Source: Candidatus Sumerlaeota bacterium (GTDB lineage Bacteria > Sumerlaeota > Sumerlaeia > JAFGJS01). Taken from it: DNA of 10,868 nt. Position 1 is the first letter of the stretch. Each line of letters starts with the position of its first letter. The stretch covers positions 1-10,868 of the forward strand of contig JAFGJS010000090.1 of the NCBI GenBank assembly GCA_016928995.1, written 5' to 3'. The position numbers and the translations under genes are program-made. Positions 25 through 10,168 of the stretch are shown one piece after another. The notes beneath the pieces are model-generated. The model was not told the DNA's origin, made no database searches, and was given only the letters and a program-made list of their open reading frames with translations.

Positions 25-1644
25 ATGAATACCGAACCATCATTGCTCGTAGTCGATGATGAACCTATCGTTTGTGAAAGCTGCGTGCGTGTGCTGAAGC
101 CGCAGGGATATCAGGTTGAGGTCATCAACGACTCACGTCAAGGCTTGGAAATGGCCGTCAACAACACATATGACGCTATTTTGCTTGATCTGAAAATGCC
201 TTATCTTGATGGCATTCAATTCCTGGAGCGGCTGCGCGATCAAAATAAAGACATCCCGGTGCTGATGATCACCGGTTATGCGAGCATTCCGTCGGCCTCG
301 GCGGCGATGCGCCTGGGCGCATGCGATTATATTGCGAAGCCCTTCACGCCGGATGAAATCAGCGTGGCTGTCAGCCGCACACTGGCTACGCGAACCAAGA
401 TCGACGAAATAGCGCAAGTGGTTCAGGTGGCGCCTGCACCGCCAGTGGAGAAGGCGCCGGCAACAGAAGACGCCGCAACAGACACCGACACAGTCCGCTT
501 TTATCAGGAAAGCTGGGTGCGCTGCGAGACGCCGGCGATGTTGCGCATTGGCGGTTTCATCAGCCATGAAGCCGGTCTGACGACGACACAGGTGCGTCTG
601 CCGCGTGTTGGAGAGATGGTGTACCGGGGATTGCCAATGGCCGCGCTGTTCCGTTTCAAGAATCCAGCGATTTACATTCCCGCTCCCGCCACCGGCCGAG
701 TCGTGGAAGTGAATTACGCCGTGGCCGACGATCCCTCGGCGCTGTGGAATGATCCATGCGGCGCGGGCTGGATCGCGCGCATTCGCACCCAGGCGGACGA
801 TTATACGGAGAACGCCGTCCGCGAGGTGACCGTGATTGGCGCCGAGGATGCGGATCTGAGCGCCACGGCTGAGGCTTTGATCAATTTTGGCTGCAATGTT
901 TCGCGGAGCCATGATGTTCCTTCGCGCGAGCAGCTGATGGCTTCGTCCGATTCGCCGGTGGTGTGGATCGACGCAGTCTCGTTGGGCGCTCTTGGACCTG
1001 ATATCGTTGAGCGGCTCAATCTCAATGTGCCGGAAGCGAAAATCGTCGTGCTGGCTGATCCGGCTTCCACGCTGGAGAAAAGCTATCGCGCTCGCCGGTT
1101 GTTTTACTACGCCGTCGAGGAATTGGGTGAATTCGAATTGAATGAAATTCTGGCCTCCGCTTTCCGCGCGCCGCTGCCGGAGCATCCGAAGTCCAGTCAG
1201 TCCAGCCTGCTTCCGCGCTGGATCGACCGCATTGATGTGACGAACCGCGACGGCGACAAGGCGTCTTGCTTGATCGACGGGCAGCTGTTGGACAGTCAGG
1301 ACGGCCTGGGTTGCCGCTTGGTGAAGATGCTGCTGGAGAAAAATTATCCGGTTGAAACGCTGCATGGGGAAGGCGAATTGACCGGCCAGATGATTCACAA
1401 TGCGCTCTACGACAATGCACGCGTATTCATTCTCAAATGCGCTGATAGCGGCAGGTTGCCGGGAAGCCTGACGGCCCGGCAGAACGATGAACTCGTCGAA
1501 ACGCTGAAGGCGCCGAATTGCAAATTGGTCGATCTGACCATGCAGCCGGCGTTGAATGAGAATCTGGTTCAGTTTACTCCGGATGTGATCGAAGCGATGG
1601 CCGCTAATCTGGCCCGCATGTTGACGGAGAAGCAGAGCAACTAA
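25..1644 (+). CDS. Receiver / GcvH-like / pseudo-receiver / HybD-like fusion protein, probable hydrogenase-linked response regulator
   Basis: Four domains can be read in 539 residues. Residues 4-121 are a canonical response-regulator receiver: acidic pair D11-D12, phospho-acceptor D55, T83 and K105 are all present, so phosphorylation by a histidine kinase is expected. A Pro/Ala/Thr-rich linker (about 130-156) follows. Residues 158-256 align with glycine cleavage H protein (SWVR, PRVGEMV, PATGRVVEVN, DPCGAGW); K212 sits near the lipoyl-lysine position but in an altered context (FRFKN) with one extra residue after it. Residues 265-381 look like a second receiver fold with D316 but no beta-5 lysine. 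Residues about 410-535 align with HybD/HycI maturation proteases (LLDSQDGLG, DSGRLPGS, QFTPDVIEAM), but the second metal ligand position is K471 and no histidine equivalent is seen. No helix-turn-helix or AAA domain is visible, so it probably acts through protein contacts. The receiver is certain and the GcvH-like domain strong; the last two are my own alignments. The cognate kinase is not in the window. Confidence 0.85.
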   Translation: MNTEPSLLVVDDEPIVCESCVRVLKPQGYQVEVINDSRQGLEMAVNNTYDAILLDLKMPYLDGIQFLERLRDQNKDIPVLMITGYASIPSASAAMRLGACDYIAKPFTPDEISVAVSRTLATRTKIDEIAQVVQVAPAPPVEKAPATEDAATDTDTVRFYQESWVRCETPAMLRIGGFISHEAGLTTTQVRLPRVGEMVYRGLPMAALFRFKNPAIYIPAPATGRVVEVNYAVADDPSALWNDPCGAGWIARIRTQADDYTENAVREVTVIGAEDADLSATAEALINFGCNVSRSHDVPSREQLMASSDSPVVWIDAVSLGALGPDIVERLNLNVPEAKIVVLADPASTLEKSYRARRLFYYAVEELGEFELNEILASAFRAPLPEHPKSSQSSLLPRWIDRIDVTNRDGDKASCLIDGQLLDSQDGLGCRLVKMLLEKNYPVETLHGEGELTGQMIHNALYDNARVFILKCADSGRLPGSLTARQNDELVETLKAPNCKLVDLTMQPALNENLVQFTPDVIEAMAANLARMLTEKQSN

Positions 1645-1880
1645 GCACGAAGTGCGGCCGCGGCCGCGAGCCGGATTTCACCAGGACGGTCTTGTTTCCA
1701 ATCAAGCGCCTCTCCAGAGAAACGATTCATTTCCGCGGCAGATATGATGCAGCAGCCCTCCTTTAAGGGAGGGCTGCTGCCTCCTGCTTTCGCTCAAGCG
1801 GCGTTTGATGAGAGCAGCCAACATCGAGCACAAGACCGACAAAGACTGAAAACCACAATTTCAATATAAGGAAGGCATCA
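1645..1880. other. Intergenic region before the hydrogenase operon
   Basis: This 236-base gap separates the regulator gene from hoxE. It holds a 14-base GC palindrome (1654-1667), a strong 13-bp hairpin (1749-1780) and the hoxE Shine-Dalgarno site (AAGGAAGG, 1868-1875). I searched by eye for a sigma-54 GG-N10-GC element and a good -35/-10 pair and found neither. A hydrogenase promoter is expected downstream of the hairpin but I cannot place it. Confidence 0.5.
1749..1780 (+). terminator. Strong hairpin, possible terminator or leader structure
   Basis: GCAGCAGCCCTCC (1749-1761) pairs perfectly with GGAGGGCTGCTGC (1768-1780) around a 6-base loop. This 13-bp GC-rich stem lies 104 bases after the regulator stop. 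It lacks a following T-run (the next bases are CTCCTGCTTTC), so it is not a textbook intrinsic terminator. It could end the regulator transcript with help, stabilise an RNA 3' end, or act in a hydrogenase leader. Confidence 0.5.
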
Positions 1881-2390
1881 ATGAGCGCGAAGACAGATGT
1901 AATGGAAGCGTCCGAACAGAAAGCAGATCCGCGCTGGCGCAGCGTCGAAAAGACTATGCGGCAGCACGGCTATCACGCGAACGGCCTCATCGAGACTCTG
2001 CATGCGGTTCAGGAGGCGTATGGCTGTCTGGATGAAGAAGCCCTGCGCAGAATCGCCGCTGAGTTGCGAGTCGCCTTAAGCCACGTTTACGGCGTGGCCA
2101 CGTTTTATAACTATTTCACCATGGCGCCGCCCGGGCGCCACACCTGCGTGGTTTGCATGGGCACCGCATGCTACATCAAGGGCGCGGGCGAGATCATGGA
2201 GCGCATCAGCAAGGAATTCAACGTCGCTCCGGAAGAGACATCCGACGACGGCAACCTGTCGCTGCTCAGCGCGCGCTGCATCGGCTGCTGCGGACAAGCG
2301 CCGGCCCTGGTGGTCGACGGTGAAATCTGGGGCGGACTTTCCGCCGACGAAGTGATCGAACGATTAAGGAGAGTTTTGAATGACGCCTGA
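1881..2390 (+). CDS. hoxE: NAD-reducing [NiFe] hydrogenase diaphorase subunit HoxE (NuoE-like)
   Basis: This 169-residue protein belongs to the NuoE / 24-kDa thioredoxin-like [2Fe-2S] family. An N-terminal helical segment (about 15-75, with the family pattern GVATFYNYF near 71-79) precedes the thioredoxin-like cluster domain. The four cluster ligands are C92 and C97 (C-x4-C) and C133 and C137 (C-x3-C, followed by GQAP). It passes electrons within the HoxEFU module that connects NAD(H) to the hydrogenase. The ATG at 1881 has an AAGGAAGG site just upstream. Its end overlaps hoxF by 11 bases. The same family includes HndA and complex I NuoE; the downstream HoxYH genes decide the name. Confidence 0.93.
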
Positions 2391-4017
2391 AGAATTGCAC
2401 GACCTATGCACCCAAGAACAGGAAGCCGCCGAGCAATATCCGCATCATCTCTATGTTTGCTCGAGCGACCCGAAATCCATCCTGGCGAAAGACTTGCGTC
2501 AGGAAATAAAAAAACGCGACAAGGAAAAGACGATCTGCGTCCATGAGGTCGGTTTCATGGGGCTGGGCGCCGAAGAGCCGATTGTGCGCGTCGAGCCGCA
2601 ACAGGTATATTACCAGCGCGTCGGCGCCGAGGATATTGATGCGTTGTTCGACAGTCTGGATAGCGGAAAATCCATTGAGCGCCTTGCCTGCGAGACCTTG
2701 CCGGAATTGCTGAAGCATCAACGGCTGGTAGTGCTGGATAAAAATGATCGAATCAATCCCAACCGGATTGAAGATTACATCGCCTGCGGCGGCTATCAGG
2801 CGCTAATGCGCGCGCTGACTGAGCAATCGCCTGCTCAGGTCCTTGAGGAAATCACACAGAGCGGACTGCGCGGACGCGGCGGCGCCGGATTTCCCACTGG
2901 TCTGAAATGGAATCTGGTGGCCAAGGCCCAAGGCGAGAAAAAATATGTGGTCTGCAACGCGGATGAGGGCGATCCCGGCGCGTTCATGGATCGCATGATT
3001 TTGGAGTGCAATCCGCACCGCGTGCTGGAGGGCATGCTACTCGCCGGTTACGCCGTAGGCGCAAGCCAGGGCTACATCTACATCCGCGCGGAATATCCGT
3101 TGGCGATCAAGCGTCTGCGACTGGCGATCAAGCAGGCGCAACGGCTCGGACTGCTGGGTCACCGCATCGGCGAAGTCGGTTTTGATTTCAACATCGAATT
3201 GCGGCTGGGCGCCGGCGCCTTTGTCTGCGGCGAGGAGACGGCGCTGCTGGGCTCCATCGCCGGACGTCGTGGAACTCCGCGGCCGCGGCCGCCCTATCCC
3301 GCGGAGCGCGGCCTGTGGAACGCCCCGACATTGATCAACAACGTGGAGACGTTCGCCAATATCGCGCCGATCATGAAACACGGCTCCGCGTGGTTCGCCA
3401 ACATCGGCACGGAAAAAAGCAAAGGCACCAAGGTCTTCGCCCTGGCTGGCCGCGTGACATACACCGGTCTTGTCGAAGTGCCGATGGGCGTGCCCTTACG
3501 CGACATCATCTTCAAACTTGGCGGCGGCATTCCGAATCATTGCGAATTCAAGGCCGTGCAAACCGGCGGACCATCCGGCGGCTGCATCCCGGCCGAGCAT
3601 CTCGACATTTCCGTTGATTATGATTCGCTGGCGCAGGTTGGTTCGATCATGGGCTCCGGCGGCATGATCATCATGGACGAAACATCCTGCATGGTCGACG
3701 TGGCCAAGTTTTTCATGGCGTTTTGTTGCGAAGAGTCGTGCGGAAAATGCATTCCCTGCCGCGTGGGCACATCGCAAATGTATCACATCCTTCAACGCAT
3801 CACCAACGGCCAGGGCACGCTTTACGATCTGGAACTACTAGAGGAACTTTGCGACGTCATGCAAAACACCAGCCTCTGCGGACTAGGGCAGACTGCGCCG
3901 AATCCATTGCTCAGCACCTTGCGTTTCTTCCGCCACGAGTATCTGGCGCACATTCTGGACAAGCAATGTCCGGCGAAAGTCTGTAAAATTCATAAAGTGA
4001 TGGAGGCGGTCTCATGA
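2380..4017 (+). CDS. hoxF: NAD-reducing [NiFe] hydrogenase diaphorase subunit HoxF (NuoF-like), NAD/FMN-binding
   Basis: This 545-residue protein carries the FMN and NAD(H) site of the diaphorase. The family blocks are present: [16 protein letters not shown] (162-177, nucleotide/FMN glycine-rich loop), [14 protein letters not shown] (192-205), [16 protein letters not shown] (283-298), NNVETFANI (320-328), and a C-terminal [4Fe-4S] site [12 protein letters not shown] with C454, C457, C460 and C500. Residues about 20-90 resemble the thioredoxin-like domain that precedes NuoF in HydB/HoxF proteins, but of its four expected cysteines only C27 stays: the GCxGxC pair reads GFMGLG (F59, G63). No bacterial-ferredoxin extension follows residue 520, which separates it from longer HydB/HndC forms. 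AAGGAG at 2366-2371 sets the start, inside the end of hoxE. Its stop overlaps the hoxU start in an ATGA. Confidence 0.95.
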
Positions 4018-4736
4018 ATGCAACCAGCGTACGAATCGTCACGCTTAAGATCGACGATAGGGAACTCAGCGCGCGGGAGGACCGCACCATCCTGGAAGTG
4101 GCGAGGGAAAACCAGCTTGACATCCCTACGCTTTGCCACCTGGACGGCTTGAGCAGTTCAGGCGCCTGCCGTTTGTGCCTGGTGGAGATCACGGGCATCC
4201 GCCGGCTGCTGCCGGCCTGTGTCACAACGGTCGGCGAAGGCATGGAAGTCTATACGAACACGCCGCGCATTCAACATTACCGCAAGCTGATTCTCGAATT
4301 GCTGTTTTCCGAGCGGAATCACGTTTGCTCGGTGTGCGTGTCGAACGGGCAATGCGAATTGCAGGAACTGGCCCGCAAACTGGGCGTGGATCATGTGCAT
4401 TATCCATACCTGATGCCCGAGCTGCCGGTCGATGCGTCGAATCCGCGTTTTGTCGTGGATCACAACCGCTGCATCCTCTGCGGACGCTGCACGCGGGCTT
4501 GCGACGAAATCGAAGGGGCGCACACCTGGGATATGCGGGGGCGTGGCATCGAGACCCGCGTGATCACCGACTTCAGCGATCCCTGGGGCGCATCGTCCAC
4601 CTGCACCGGCTGCGGCAAATGCGTGCATGTCTGCCCGACCGGCGCGCTTTCGGAAAAAGGGCGCTCCGTCGCCGAAATGGTGAAGCACAAACATTTCATG
4701 CCTTATCTGACTTTGATGCGAAAGGAACAATCATGA
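4014..4736 (+). CDS. hoxU: NAD-reducing [NiFe] hydrogenase subunit HoxU (iron-sulfur relay, NuoG N-terminal-like)
   Basis: This 240-residue protein matches the N-terminal part of NuoG and wires the diaphorase to the hydrogenase dimer. It starts with a plant-type [2Fe-2S] domain with ligands C41, C52, C55 and C69. Next is a [4Fe-4S] site of the NuoG His/Cys type, with C105, C108, C114 and probably H103. Two ferredoxin-type CxxCxxCxxxC clusters follow (C153-C163 and C197-C207, the latter ending in CP). There is no molybdopterin-type C-terminal domain, as expected for HoxU rather than full NuoG. GGAGG at 4002-4006 precedes the ATG. The gene overlaps hoxF and hoxY by 4 bases each (ATGA), indicating translational coupling. 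Confidence 0.95.
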
Positions 4737-5248
4737 GCAAACCTCGCTTAGCCTCGATTTGGCTGGATGGATGCAGCGGCTGCCATATGTCGCTGATCGA
4801 TCTGGACGATCAATTATTCGCGCTCGCGGAAAAGGTCGATGTGGTTTTCGGACCGCTGGTCGACACCAAGGAGTTTCCCGAAGGCGTCGACATCACCCTA
4901 GTGGAAGGCGCCGTCAGCACCGACGAAGACCATGAAGTGATCAAACTCATCCGCCAGCGCACGAAATACTTGGTGGCGCTGGGCGATTGCGCGGTCACTA
5001 CGAATATTCCCGGCATGCGCAACAGCTCGGGAACACAGGAGATGCTGCAGGGCGTGTATCCCGAAGCCCCGGCATGGACCGATGATCTGCCGAAACTGCA
5101 GCGTGCGTTGCCATTGCATGCCGTGGTCAAGGTCGATGTGCATCTGCCCGGCTGCCCGCCGCCGCCCGAGATGTTTTTTGCCGTCATCGCGGCGCTGTTG
5201 GAAGACCGCATTCCCGACGTCCAGAACCAAGTCCGCTTCGGAATGTGA
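4733..5248 (+). CDS. hoxY: [NiFe] hydrogenase small subunit HoxY
   Basis: This is the 171-residue small subunit of the Hox-type cytoplasmic hydrogenase. It should bind one proximal [4Fe-4S] cluster through C14 and C17 (DGCSGCHMS), C86 (GDCAV) and C141 (LPGCPPPPE), passing electrons from the HoxH active site to HoxU. It has no twin-arginine signal and none of the extra cluster-binding domain of membrane uptake hydrogenases, fitting a soluble group 3 enzyme. The frame is open far upstream, but the ATG at 4733 matches the family start (hydrophobic strand then CSGC). AAGGAA at 4722-4727 lies 5 bases before it, and it overlaps the hoxU stop. hoxH follows after 34 bases. Confidence 0.95.
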
Positions 5249-6775: not shown

Positions 6776-6811
6776 ATATGCCCTTTAAGCATGGGTCAAT
6801 GGAAAAGAAAG

Positions 6812-7294
6812 ATGAAAACACTGATTATCGGTTACGGCAGTCCATTGCGCAGCGACGACGGCGCCGGTCCATGGCTCGTGGATGCTTTGTCGCGTCAAAT
6901 CGACGATCCATCGATGCAGTTCATGACCTGCCATCAATTAAGCCCCGATCTCGCCGGCGCCTTCAGCCGTGTCGATAAAGTCGTATTCGTTGACGCGCGC
7001 CGCGCGGATAAAACGGGCGACTTGCAGCTTCAACAGCTTTCGCCTGACGATTTATGCTCCGATTTTTTCTCTCATCACATGCCGCCGCAGAACATTCTGG
7101 CGCTATGCCGGGCGCTTTACGGCGCATGCCCCGAAGCGCTGGTTGTCACCGTGTCCACGTCGGAATTGGAGCCGGGTTTGGACCTCTCTCCGGCCTTGCG
7201 GCGAGCGCTGCCTGAAATGCTGCGCCGGATCAAAGCGCTGCTCATGGAGAATGATTTTTCCGGTGATGTATGTCAAATGCATTGCCGCGCTTAA
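6812..7294 (+). CDS. hoxW: Hydrogenase maturation protease HoxW (HyaD/HybD/HycI family, peptidase M52)
   Basis: This 160-residue enzyme is the nickel-dependent endopeptidase expected to remove the 25-residue tail of HoxH. The N-terminal block LIIGYGSPLRSDDGAG (4-19) carries D16, equivalent to E16 of HybD. D61 in VVFVDARR matches HybD D62. H88/H89 in SHHMPPQ matches HybD H93. All three metal-contact positions are thus filled. I chose the ATG at 6812 because family members begin almost directly with the strand leading into GxGxxxxxDDG; an in-frame ATG at 6791 would add seven residues (MGQWKRK). The ribosome site is only a weak purine run. The gene follows hoxH after 104 bases with a hairpin in between, and a clear terminator follows it. 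The C-terminus (QMHCRA) has two cysteines nearby of unknown significance. Confidence 0.92.
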   Translation: MKTLIIGYGSPLRSDDGAGPWLVDALSRQIDDPSMQFMTCHQLSPDLAGAFSRVDKVVFVDARRADKTGDLQLQQLSPDDLCSDFFSHHMPPQNILALCRALYGACPEALVVTVSTSELEPGLDLSPALRRALPEMLRRIKALLMENDFSGDVCQMHCRA

Positions 7295-7414: not shown

Positions 7415-10168
7415 TCATGGCTTGACGACTTCGATGTTGGGCTTGGGCGGCGCATCCATGCCGTCGCCCAGATAAAAGCCGGTGTGTGGCGGCTGGTTGT
7501 ACGAGTTGTTTTGCCAGGCCACGTTCTCCCGGTAATGCGGATCGTGCATCAGCGTGTAGATGCGATGCCCGGTCGGGATGGTTGTCGAGTAGATACGCAG
7601 TTCCCGGTTGTCCGCGGAACGCCAGACCACTTCCTCGCGCCAGTCGCCGAACAGATCGGCCTGCAAGGTCGGCGTGCCTTTGGTCCAGTTGCAGGAGTAC
7701 GCGCCTTCGGCGTTGAGGATCACGTCCGCTTTTTTCTGCTCATAATCCCATTTGAAAATCTGGCCTGTGCCTGCGCCGACTTCGCCGCCCAGCCAGTGAT
7801 GATCGAGCAGCTCTCGCAACAGGTCGCCGTCCCACCAGACCATGAAATTCATCGGCAGCGAGCTGGGGCCGATTTCTTCGCCTTTGCAGGTGTACATCGG
7901 ACTCCCCGTGCTGCCCCAGAGTTCAAATCCCCGATGAGTTGGATCAATATCTCCGGCGCAGCAACGGCCCACGTCCTTGGGATTGTCGTATTCAAAGATG
8001 ATCAGGCCAGTCTTCGCGTCGCGGAATGTGATTCCGCTGGCTTGGGTTTCATGGCACTGCCAGACTTCCAGGCCGGGGCGACCCGGGTCCATGTCCGACA
8101 CGTGCAGCGCATCGCCATGTCCCAGTTCCGTGGTGTAGAGTCCTTTGCCGTCTTGATCGATGGTCATTGAGGCGTAGATGATTTCGTCGTATCCGTCGTT
8201 GTCGACATCGCCGGTGCTCATATTATGGTTGCCCTGGTAGCTGTATCCAGGCCACTCGTTGCTGTTGAAACGCCATAGTTTTTCCAGCTTTCCATTACGG
8301 AAATTCCACGCCTCCAATTTAATCAACGCGTAAATACCGCGTGTAATAAAGAGGCTGGGTTTCTCGCCGTCCAGATAAACCGCGGCGAACATGCATTTCG
8401 TCGCGCGATGGCCGTAGTTGTCGCCGTATTGAATCACCGGGTTGCGTTCGATGTAGTCCGCCCGATCCAGTTCGCGGCCGGTCATGCCGTCGAAGACGGA
8501 AAGGAAATCCGGGCCTTTGCTGATGAACTTCCAGCTGAATGGGCGATAGTCGCCGATGCCGTCGCGGTTTTCATCGCCGATAGTGGCGCCGGCGCCGTCG
8601 GTTGTGCCTTCCGAGGTGCGCGTCACCATCTCCGCCTTGCCGTCGCTATCGAGGTCATACACCAGGAAATTCAACTCGGCGTCATACAAGTAATTCGGCC
8701 CCATGTTAATGCGCCACATCATCGTGCCGTCCAGCTTGTAGGCTTCGAACAGCATGTGTTCATCCGGATCAGGCGAAATGCGCTTGATCACGATTTCATA
8801 TTCGCCGTCGCCGTCCAGATCGCCGCATTCGCCGTCATTGATGAAGTAGGAGAAATTATCGTCGCCCGGAACCTGCTGCACCGGAATGCTGAAGTGCTCT
8901 TTCGGCCAGGCTTTCACTTCGCGCGACACGGCTTGCTCTTTCCCATCCAGCACCGCCCGGACGCAGTACGTCGCTTCAAGCGTTCCGTTCGCATCGACAT
9001 AGTTCGTGGAATCGGTGATCGGCGAATGGTTCAGCAGTTCGCCGTCGCGATATACATTGAACGCGATCGCATCCGGTTCGGTTCCGAGCAAGCGCCAACT
9101 GAGGAATATGCCGTCGTTGCTCTTAATGGCGACAAGCCCCCGGTCGAGATATTCCATGCGGCGCGGTTTGAGCTTGTTCACATACGTGAAAGACCAAAGG
9201 TCGCCTTTCGTGGTTTCGCCGTCTCGCACGGTGTCCACGCGCCAATAACATGTCGTGTCTAGTTTTGCATAGGCTGGCATGCTGATCACAGCGCCTTGGG
9301 TGCTTCCCAGAAAGATTGCCGGATTATCTTTTGCCGCGCTTTCCACGGCATTGGCGTCAGCGCCAAAGTAAACCTCGCTGATCACATCGCCCGGCCCCGG
9401 CGTCCAACTGAGCCTGTCCGGTTGTTCCAAGGTGTGCACGCCGTTCCAGGGACGCGGCATGGTGGCGCCGGCGATCCGGCGCGCATTCAGCGTCGTATTA
9501 TTATCAGCGGGATTGTATGTGGCGACGACGATGAAACCCGGATCGGTGACGATCTTGCCTGTGTGGATCAGCTCCTTGAAAATCCCGGTCGTATCGCCCG
9601 GCGTATAGCAAAATCCAGAGTCCTGAATGTAGATCGATCCTTCGCCGCCATTAACGCCGAATTTGGGCGGTTCGTTGAGATGCACATATCCGTTCAACAC
9701 CCTCAACGCGCCATTGCCATTGGCGCCATCTCCCAGAATCATCCCGCCTTTAAGCCGGAATGTGCCGCCATTGATCGTCAGCGCGCCAACGCCATCACGG
9801 CCGACGTAAACATCCGACCGAATATTCAATTCCGCTCCGTTGCCTAGTTCCACTTTGCCGTTCAGGTGGTGAGTGCCCCAGGGCATCAATTGTCCATTGT
9901 TGATCAGCAGATCGGCCTGTTCAGTAGTATTCAGGACTCCCGGGCGCCAATCCTTGGCGCCTTGCCTGGTTTTATGCTGCATCGGATTATGCGGATTGCC
10001 TGCGCCGATGGTGAGAACTCCGTCCAGCGCGCCTTCCCAGTTCTTCTCGTCCCACATGTCATTGCTGATCCCGCCGACCCAGACGCAATCGGCCCACACC
10101 CCCAGCGAAATCACGAAAAACGCTGAAATTATCAGCGTTAGCAGATAACGCTCTCTTGCTCCGCTCAT
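7415..10168 (-). CDS. Secreted rhamnogalacturonan lyase, polysaccharide lyase family 11, with N-terminal beta-repeat region
   Basis: This 917-residue protein should cleave the rhamnogalacturonan I backbone of pectin by beta-elimination outside the cytoplasm. Residues 1-26 form a Sec signal peptide: charged RER, hydrophobic 8-25, likely cut after VWA. Residues 27-235 open with a W-x-G...WDEKNW module and glycine-rich repeats (about 105-190). Residues 240-330 form an Fn3-like 'VYFG...CYWRVDTV...LWSFTY' module. From about 338 the PL11 pattern begins (MEYLDRGLVAI, GIFLSWRLLG, FNVYRDG) and a propeller domain runs to the end. Aspartate-rich calcium-type loops lie at 450-458, 505-513, 532-540 and 654-662. 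Family blocks GHGDALHVSDMDP, ADLFGDWREEVVWR and YTLMHDPHYR (872-880) are present. No sorting signal or dockerin follows. The start has AAGGGGG upstream (10179-10185 complement). No transporter or regulator gene accompanies it here; it converges on the hydrogenase operon. Family assignment is strong; the N-terminal modules are described, not named. Confidence 0.93.
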   Translation of the reverse strand: MSGARERYLLTLIISAFFVISLGVWADCVWVGGISNDMWDEKNWEGALDGVLTIGAGNPHNPMQHKTRQGAKDWRPGVLNTTEQADLLINNGQLMPWGTHHLNGKVELGNGAELNIRSDVYVGRDGVGALTINGGTFRLKGGMILGDGANGNGALRVLNGYVHLNEPPKFGVNGGEGSIYIQDSGFCYTPGDTTGIFKELIHTGKIVTDPGFIVVATYNPADNNTTLNARRIAGATMPRPWNGVHTLEQPDRLSWTPGPGDVISEVYFGADANAVESAAKDNPAIFLGSTQGAVISMPAYAKLDTTCYWRVDTVRDGETTKGDLWSFTYVNKLKPRRMEYLDRGLVAIKSNDGIFLSWRLLGTEPDAIAFNVYRDGELLNHSPITDSTNYVDANGTLEATYCVRAVLDGKEQAVSREVKAWPKEHFSIPVQQVPGDDNFSYFINDGECGDLDGDGEYEIVIKRISPDPDEHMLFEAYKLDGTMMWRINMGPNYLYDAELNFLVYDLDSDGKAEMVTRTSEGTTDGAGATIGDENRDGIGDYRPFSWKFISKGPDFLSVFDGMTGRELDRADYIERNPVIQYGDNYGHRATKCMFAAVYLDGEKPSLFITRGIYALIKLEAWNFRNGKLEKLWRFNSNEWPGYSYQGNHNMSTGDVDNDGYDEIIYASMTIDQDGKGLYTTELGHGDALHVSDMDPGRPGLEVWQCHETQASGITFRDAKTGLIIFEYDNPKDVGRCCAGDIDPTHRGFELWGSTGSPMYTCKGEEIGPSSLPMNFMVWWDGDLLRELLDHHWLGGEVGAGTGQIFKWDYEQKKADVILNAEGAYSCNWTKGTPTLQADLFGDWREEVVWRSADNRELRIYSTTIPTGHRIYTLMHDPHYRENVAWQNNSYNQPPHTGFYLGDGMDAPPKPNIEVVKP

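Follow-up and report, generated by a model that had tools for sequence, protein, structure and literature searches.

The C-terminal domain of P0001, a response-regulator fusion protein of 539 aa, is homologous to the hydrogenase maturation protease HycI/HybD, which is held with very high confidence, and it has lost the metal site of that protease. Judging by its residues, the domain is catalytically dead. The presence of the family in six genomes from two phyla suggests that a dead protease has been kept as part of a signal switch. As the best explanation, P0001 is tentatively regarded, at somewhat less than an even chance, as a non-catalytic docking or feedback adaptor that is gated by phosphorylation and couples the state of the [NiFe] large subunit to a sensor-kinase/NtrC pathway. 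No earlier description of a response regulator with a dead hydrogenase maturation protease in its output was found in the open-licence literature.

Domain organization of P0001

The coding span of P0001 covers positions 25-1641 on the forward strand of the window, that is, the whole stretch of 10,868 nucleotides that was analysed, which is an entire contig (G000:C134). The gene and its domains are arranged as follows.

25-1644, forward strand: response-regulator fusion gene, protein P0001, 539 aa; 5' region cut by the contig end
25-390, forward strand: receiver (REC) domain; PF00072, E = 2.6e-30, residues 8-116; D11, D12, D55, T83, K105
505-810, forward strand: GcvH-like domain; PF01597, E = 6.3e-12, residues 161-262; lipoyl-lysine position is N213
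817-1170, forward strand: degenerate receiver domain; hhalign to the family's own REC, 88%; residues ~265-382
1216-1641, forward strand: pseudo-HycI domain with the HybD fold; E16 replaced by D426, D62 by K471, His loop and helix deleted; residues ~398-539

Only the receiver and the glycine cleavage H domain are recognised in P0001 by Pfam. The fusion to a response regulator, which had been proposed in an earlier sequence-only reading, was borne out, with a working receiver in which all five phosphorylation residues are kept (acidic pair, phospho-Asp, Thr and Lys). These residues are identical across the four family members that have a REC domain, the mean identity of which is 63%, and on this residue set the N-terminal receiver of P0001 can be phosphorylated. 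The GcvH-like domain scores well over the profile cut-off (45.9 bits for PF01597 against 22.2), and its lipoyl-lysine position is occupied by N, G, G, E and G in five members, with Lys in none. The degenerate receiver retains the strand-3 Asp (D316, invariant) and is without both the acidic pair and the Lys. No DNA-binding domain was seen in P0001. Read in this way, P0001 begins with a single working receiver, behind which come three folds that once served as carrier, receiver or enzyme, and the lipoyl-less GcvH, the degenerate receiver and the pseudo-HycI domain may represent a stack of protein-binding domains derived from them. The AlphaFold model of the full-length protein had a pTM of 0.34, so that the arrangement of the domains was left uninterpreted.

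Homology and fold of the pseudo-HycI domain

When the C-terminal 140 residues of P0001 were searched alone, matches were obtained to TIGR00072 (hydrogenase maturation protease, E = 4.9e-4) and TIGR00140 (E = 9e-4) in NCBIfam, both under the curated cut-offs (for TIGR00072, 20.1 bits against 47.45). Of the six family members, four independently have TIGR00072 as their top-scoring NCBIfam model, again under the cut-off. A profile comparison and a structure prediction had been proposed in the sequence-only reading, and both point to HybD. The profile of the C-terminal domain from the six members was aligned with 28 HycI sequences, taken from the searched genomes of the same two phyla, at an hhalign probability of 97% over 120 columns (E = 1.2e-10, as a single comparison), while the decoys reached 1.0% for the reversed profile, at most 0.3% for 30 column shuffles, and at most 1.0% for the other domains of P0001. 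The AlphaFold2 model of the domain, built from an alignment of the six family members only, with no HycI sequence, has a mean pLDDT of 85.9 and a pTM of 0.82. In the Foldseek comparison of this model with the PDB, ranks 1-6 are all HybD/HycI (5ija, 1cfz, 5ttx, 5zby), with a best E of 1e-4 and E < 0.001 only for 5ija and 1cfz. The blocks LLDSQDGLG, VFILKCADSGRLPGS and QFTPDVIEAM, previously aligned with HybD/HycI, do occur in the same order as in HycI profiles, and the collinearity extends to the PG[ST] turn after strand 3. An extra strand precedes the HybD core and the domain begins near residue 398; the domain assigned earlier to 1252-1635 is thus present, but its start lies nearer nucleotide ~1216.

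It might be argued that the likeness to HycI is due to chance or to convergence of a common alpha/beta fold. Such a view could draw on the lack of a match between Pfam PF01750 and P0001, on the search of PDB sequences with the family profile, which reached HycI only at E = 0.82, no better than chance, and on VIA-align, where the Z of 6.0 for 1cfz is not above that of unrelated alpha/beta enzymes (up to 6.9, amidase Ami1), values of about 6-7 being not discriminating. The separation of the hhalign result from its decoys, the independent choice of TIGR00072 in four members, the Foldseek ranking and the collinear blocks all speak against it, and chance or convergence is considered very improbable. 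A phmmer search of PDB sequences with the domain gave a chance match only (8ubh, E = 0.37), and a Pfam match to TseH (E = 0.1) was likewise taken as chance. In the phylogenetic tree, the six pseudo-domains come out together as a single clade, separate from working HycI (100/99 support, with long branches); the long branch on which this clade sits limits what the tree can say of its source among the HycI groups.

Loss of the metal site

The alignment was made on E. coli HybD, with the ligands numbered E16, D62 and H93. In 28 of 28 ordinary HycI proteins, including the HoxW of the window, positions 16, 62 and 93 are occupied by D, D and H, so the earlier statement that an intact HoxW lies in the same locus is correct. 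Among the six pseudo-domains, the residue at position 16 is D, T, R, R, E and S in turn, and that at position 62, in the same order, K, N, R, Q, D and L. Position 93 is absent in all six, and this region comprises 11-16 residues against 32-39 in HycI, implying that the His loop and the following helix (~20 residues) have been deleted. The sequence-only reading had placed D426 and K471 at metal-ligand positions, and they are found there, at the positions of E16 and D62; it had also reported no metal-binding His, which is right as to the His itself, but what is missing is the entire His loop and helix. The complete metal site is retained in none of the six family members, in agreement with the proposed inactive protease. 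The first acidic position varies across the family, and D426 of P0001 is therefore probably without function.

It was also considered whether the domain might be an active hydrolase whose metal site has been rearranged. One member, that of G319, retains both E16 and D62. The His is found in no member, however, position 62 is K, N, R, Q or L elsewhere, and no alternative conserved set of acidic or His ligands is visible in the six-member alignment, so that this explanation is scarcely credible. The invariant positions of the domain are structural (L422, G427, G429, L437, P442, G480 and F517). It is also the least conserved and fastest-evolving part of the protein, with a mean identity of 25.6% against 63% for REC, which implies that its surface may escape tight constraint.

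Relatives and distribution

Five homologues of P0001 were obtained in the whole-genome search, namely L009 (G011), L041 (G182), L040 (G319), L059 (G388) and L060 (G389), which gives a family of six genomes in two phyla; for the phylum other than Sumerlaeota, 14 genomes were examined. The pseudo-HycI domain is present in all five, at pairwise identities of 16-34%. L009 is a C-terminal half at a contig end, and L040 is without REC. A single-sequence scan of 84,980 genomes and a tblastn search of plasmids recovered no relative of P0001, and a scan with four sequences recovered only two loci already known, a result obtained with one short peptide pattern that does not prove rarity. A [NiFe] large subunit (PF00374) and an intact HycI are found in all six carrier genomes. 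Hydrogenase is also found in 29 of 48 non-carriers, and its possession separates carriers poorly. A candidate HycI in a 346-aa frame (G386:C3) was set aside, as its surroundings resemble a membrane-complex operon in a GC-rich region.

Genomic neighbourhood

In the window, the regulator gene is located directly upstream of hoxEFU, after which come the two hydrogenase subunits, small and then large, and HoxW, all in the same orientation. The remaining features are listed below.

1749-1780, forward strand: hairpin, 14-bp inverted repeat without mismatch, loop of 4 bases, no T run; RNA -38.9 kcal/mol, z -5.5
1881-2390, forward strand: hoxE, NuoE-like diaphorase subunit; NF005747, E = 8.6e-65
2380-4017, forward strand: hoxF, NuoF-like; TIGR01959, E = 4.8e-146; PF01512
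4014-4736, forward strand: hoxU; NF005745, E = 1.6e-117, over cut-off
4718-5248, forward strand: [NiFe] hydrogenase small subunit, start codon uncertain; NF045875, E = 5.6e-37; PF01058
5283-6707, forward strand: large subunit of the [NiFe] hydrogenase, extended C-terminally beyond DPCLSCSTH; best PDB matches 7t2r, 5xf9
6809-7294, forward strand: HoxW/HycI maturation protease, intact, all three ligands (D, D, H) kept; TIGR00072 above the cut-off at E = 5.1e-26
7415-10168, reverse strand: gene for a rhamnogalacturonan lyase of family 11, in convergent orientation to the hydrogenase operon; RGL11_C, E = 7.7e-171

The hairpin between the regulator gene and hoxE was not called as a terminator; it may be a transcript end or a processing signal. 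Among solved structures, the large subunit of the window comes nearest to 7t2r (E = 1e-155); 5xf9, an NAD-reducing hydrogenase, and Mvh 5odc rank after it. Its partners are HoxEFU. A second hydrogenase operon in the same genome (L193) contains Hdr, MvhD- and MvhA-like, HycI, HypA and HypF genes and no such regulator. Hydrogenases of groups 3b, 3c and 3d have been reported in Sumerlaeota (PMC8092238).

In G011, also of Sumerlaeota (JABWBI010000094.1), the genes downstream in the same orientation are, in order, Crp, HycI, HdrC, HdrB, HdrA, MvhD, MvhG and MvhA, as named by reading of the sequences. The gene therefore stands beside a hydrogenase operon in both Sumerlaeota carriers, which belong to one class and to different families, and the kind of operon differs (HdrCBA-MvhDGA in G011 against hoxEFU in the window). 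In the four members from the other phylum, no hydrogenase gene was seen near the gene in the available sequence. A survey for the fusion beside hydrogenase genes, as suggested at the outset, thus finds it again in G011, while four of the six members do not adjoin such genes; a link to hydrogenase is plausible. These four are instead associated with a kinase/NtrC pair. G388 and G389 have a histidine kinase first, next an NtrC regulator and then the P0001 homologue; in G182 a CotH-like gene separates the pair from the homologue, and the contig stops a short way beyond; in G319 the pair is located ~11 kb from the homologue on the same contig. A CotH-like/lamin-tail gene (~900 aa) was observed upstream of the regulator in G319 and G182 (L053 5371-8073, L054 5015-7705).

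The kinases consist of a single Cache (sCache_3_3), HAMP, HisKA and HATPase. Five of the six carriers possess a full-length orthologue (49-55% identity), that of G011 being elsewhere in the genome, and so does G394, where no P0001 homologue was found. No full-length orthologue was found in the window's own assembly, which is 92% complete. More remote orthologues (39-43%) were seen in a further four Sumerlaeota; in two of these, a REC-linker-REC regulator stands where the gene would be. Auxiliary regulators of this REC-linker-REC type, with a repeated 'VDxPF...RSDxP', were observed behind related kinase/NtrC pairs in other Sumerlaeota (L169 5908-7125, L170 4977-6179).

These neighbourhoods bear on a further explanation, in which the pseudo-HycI domain is a generic binding or dimerisation module of an auxiliary regulator for the kinase/NtrC pathway, acting as a phosphate sink or kinase modulator, with the hydrogenase neighbourhood in Sumerlaeota being secondary. 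The kinase/NtrC association of four of the six members is what this would lead one to expect, as are the free replacement of the ligand positions in the fastest-evolving domain and the similar pairs in other Sumerlaeota whose REC-linker-REC regulator has no HycI part. The ancestry of the domain is nevertheless specific to hydrogenase, and the gene occurs beside two kinds of hydrogenase operon in two Sumerlaeota of different families. A generic module is the main rival of the adaptor reading given below and is regarded as possible, though clearly short of an even chance.

Proposed role of P0001

Precedents for the docking of a maturation protease on its large subunit are available. HydD and HyaD associate stably with large subunits that have yet to be processed, for which cofactor synthesis is required; this docking does not need the C-terminal extension, and a tail-less large subunit is bound as well (PMC5299533). 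Recognition by HybD is likewise independent of the C-terminal extension (PMC6769069). Such docking, together with the working receiver and the kinase-linked relatives, leads to the reading of P0001 as a phosphorylation-gated adaptor. The pseudo-HycI domain would keep the docking of the protease on the body of the [NiFe] large subunit without cutting, phosphorylation of the receiver would gate the adaptor, and the state of the hydrogenase would be passed to the sensor-kinase/NtrC pathway. The computations show the homology and fold, the lost metal site, the intact receiver, the conservation in six genomes and the two kinds of neighbourhood; from these elements we infer that P0001 docks on the large subunit, which way the signal runs, and that the kinase receives feedback. 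Weighing against the adaptor are the four members away from hydrogenase genes, the low conservation of the C-terminal domain, the lack of a full-length kinase orthologue in the window's own assembly, and the poor separation of carriers from non-carriers by possession of a hydrogenase. In a more specific form, which is thought rather unlikely, the pseudo-protease would bind the cofactor-loaded, unprocessed large subunit and alter the flow of phosphate between kinase and NtrC, so that transcription would follow the maturation state. If this form were true, a sensor would have evolved from a maturation enzyme, and a two-component regulator would read hydrogenase assembly directly.

The sequence-only reading had instead suggested recognition of the HoxH precursor or its 25-residue tail, or competition with HoxW; as a model, such competition would brake processing when the regulator is phosphorylated. 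An intact HoxW and a tailed large subunit are indeed encoded in the same locus, and proteases can bind their substrate stably and uncut (PMC5299533). Recognition of the HoxH tail is disfavoured, since the published docking site of the protease lies away from the C-terminal extension (PMC6769069, PMC5299533). Moreover, the deletion takes out part of the active-site cleft, and in the tree the pseudo-domains fall outside the HoxW clade (weak, long branches). Competition with HoxW is accordingly held to be improbable. Should the adaptor bind large subunits, signalling would be linked to the assembly of a metallo-enzyme. A naturally inactive protease could also be used to map the HybD-type docking site, of which published work says only that it lies away from the tail.

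Comparison with known systems

The pseudo-HycI domain shares with HycI/HybD (TIGR00072, peptidase M52) the fold, the order of the blocks, the DxG-type turn and the PG[ST] turn after strand 3. It differs in having no His loop or helix, in the replacement of D62, in a score under the cut-off and in its fusion behind the receiver and GcvH-like domains. The REC-GcvH response regulators (L188:1363-2538, L191:787-1956) have a receiver followed by a GcvH domain, as in P0001, but are without the pseudo-HycI domain; as such regulators exist in other genomes, the pseudo-HycI domain represents the new element. At these loci (L188 1363-2538, L191 40-1956), tandem REC-GcvH regulators, some with an N-terminal hydrophobic segment, were observed beside genes for HybA-like ferredoxin and NrfD/HybB-like proteins, and their GcvH domains also seem to be without the lipoyl lysine. 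In REC-REC auxiliary regulators with an FYYY-type receiver (L050, L190), the first receiver resembles the degenerate receiver of P0001, a likeness for which G140 was matched over profile columns 113-239; unlike P0001, L050 and L190 contain neither a GcvH nor a HycI part. Caulobacter FixT is a receiver protein with no DNA-binding domain that acts on a two-component pathway as a feedback inhibitor of its kinase (PMC7078487). FixT is a single domain with an Fe-S cluster and is related to P0001 through REC alone; the likeness is a functional analogy only, with both proteins built on a receiver and P0001 proposed to act on a kinase pathway in a comparable manner.
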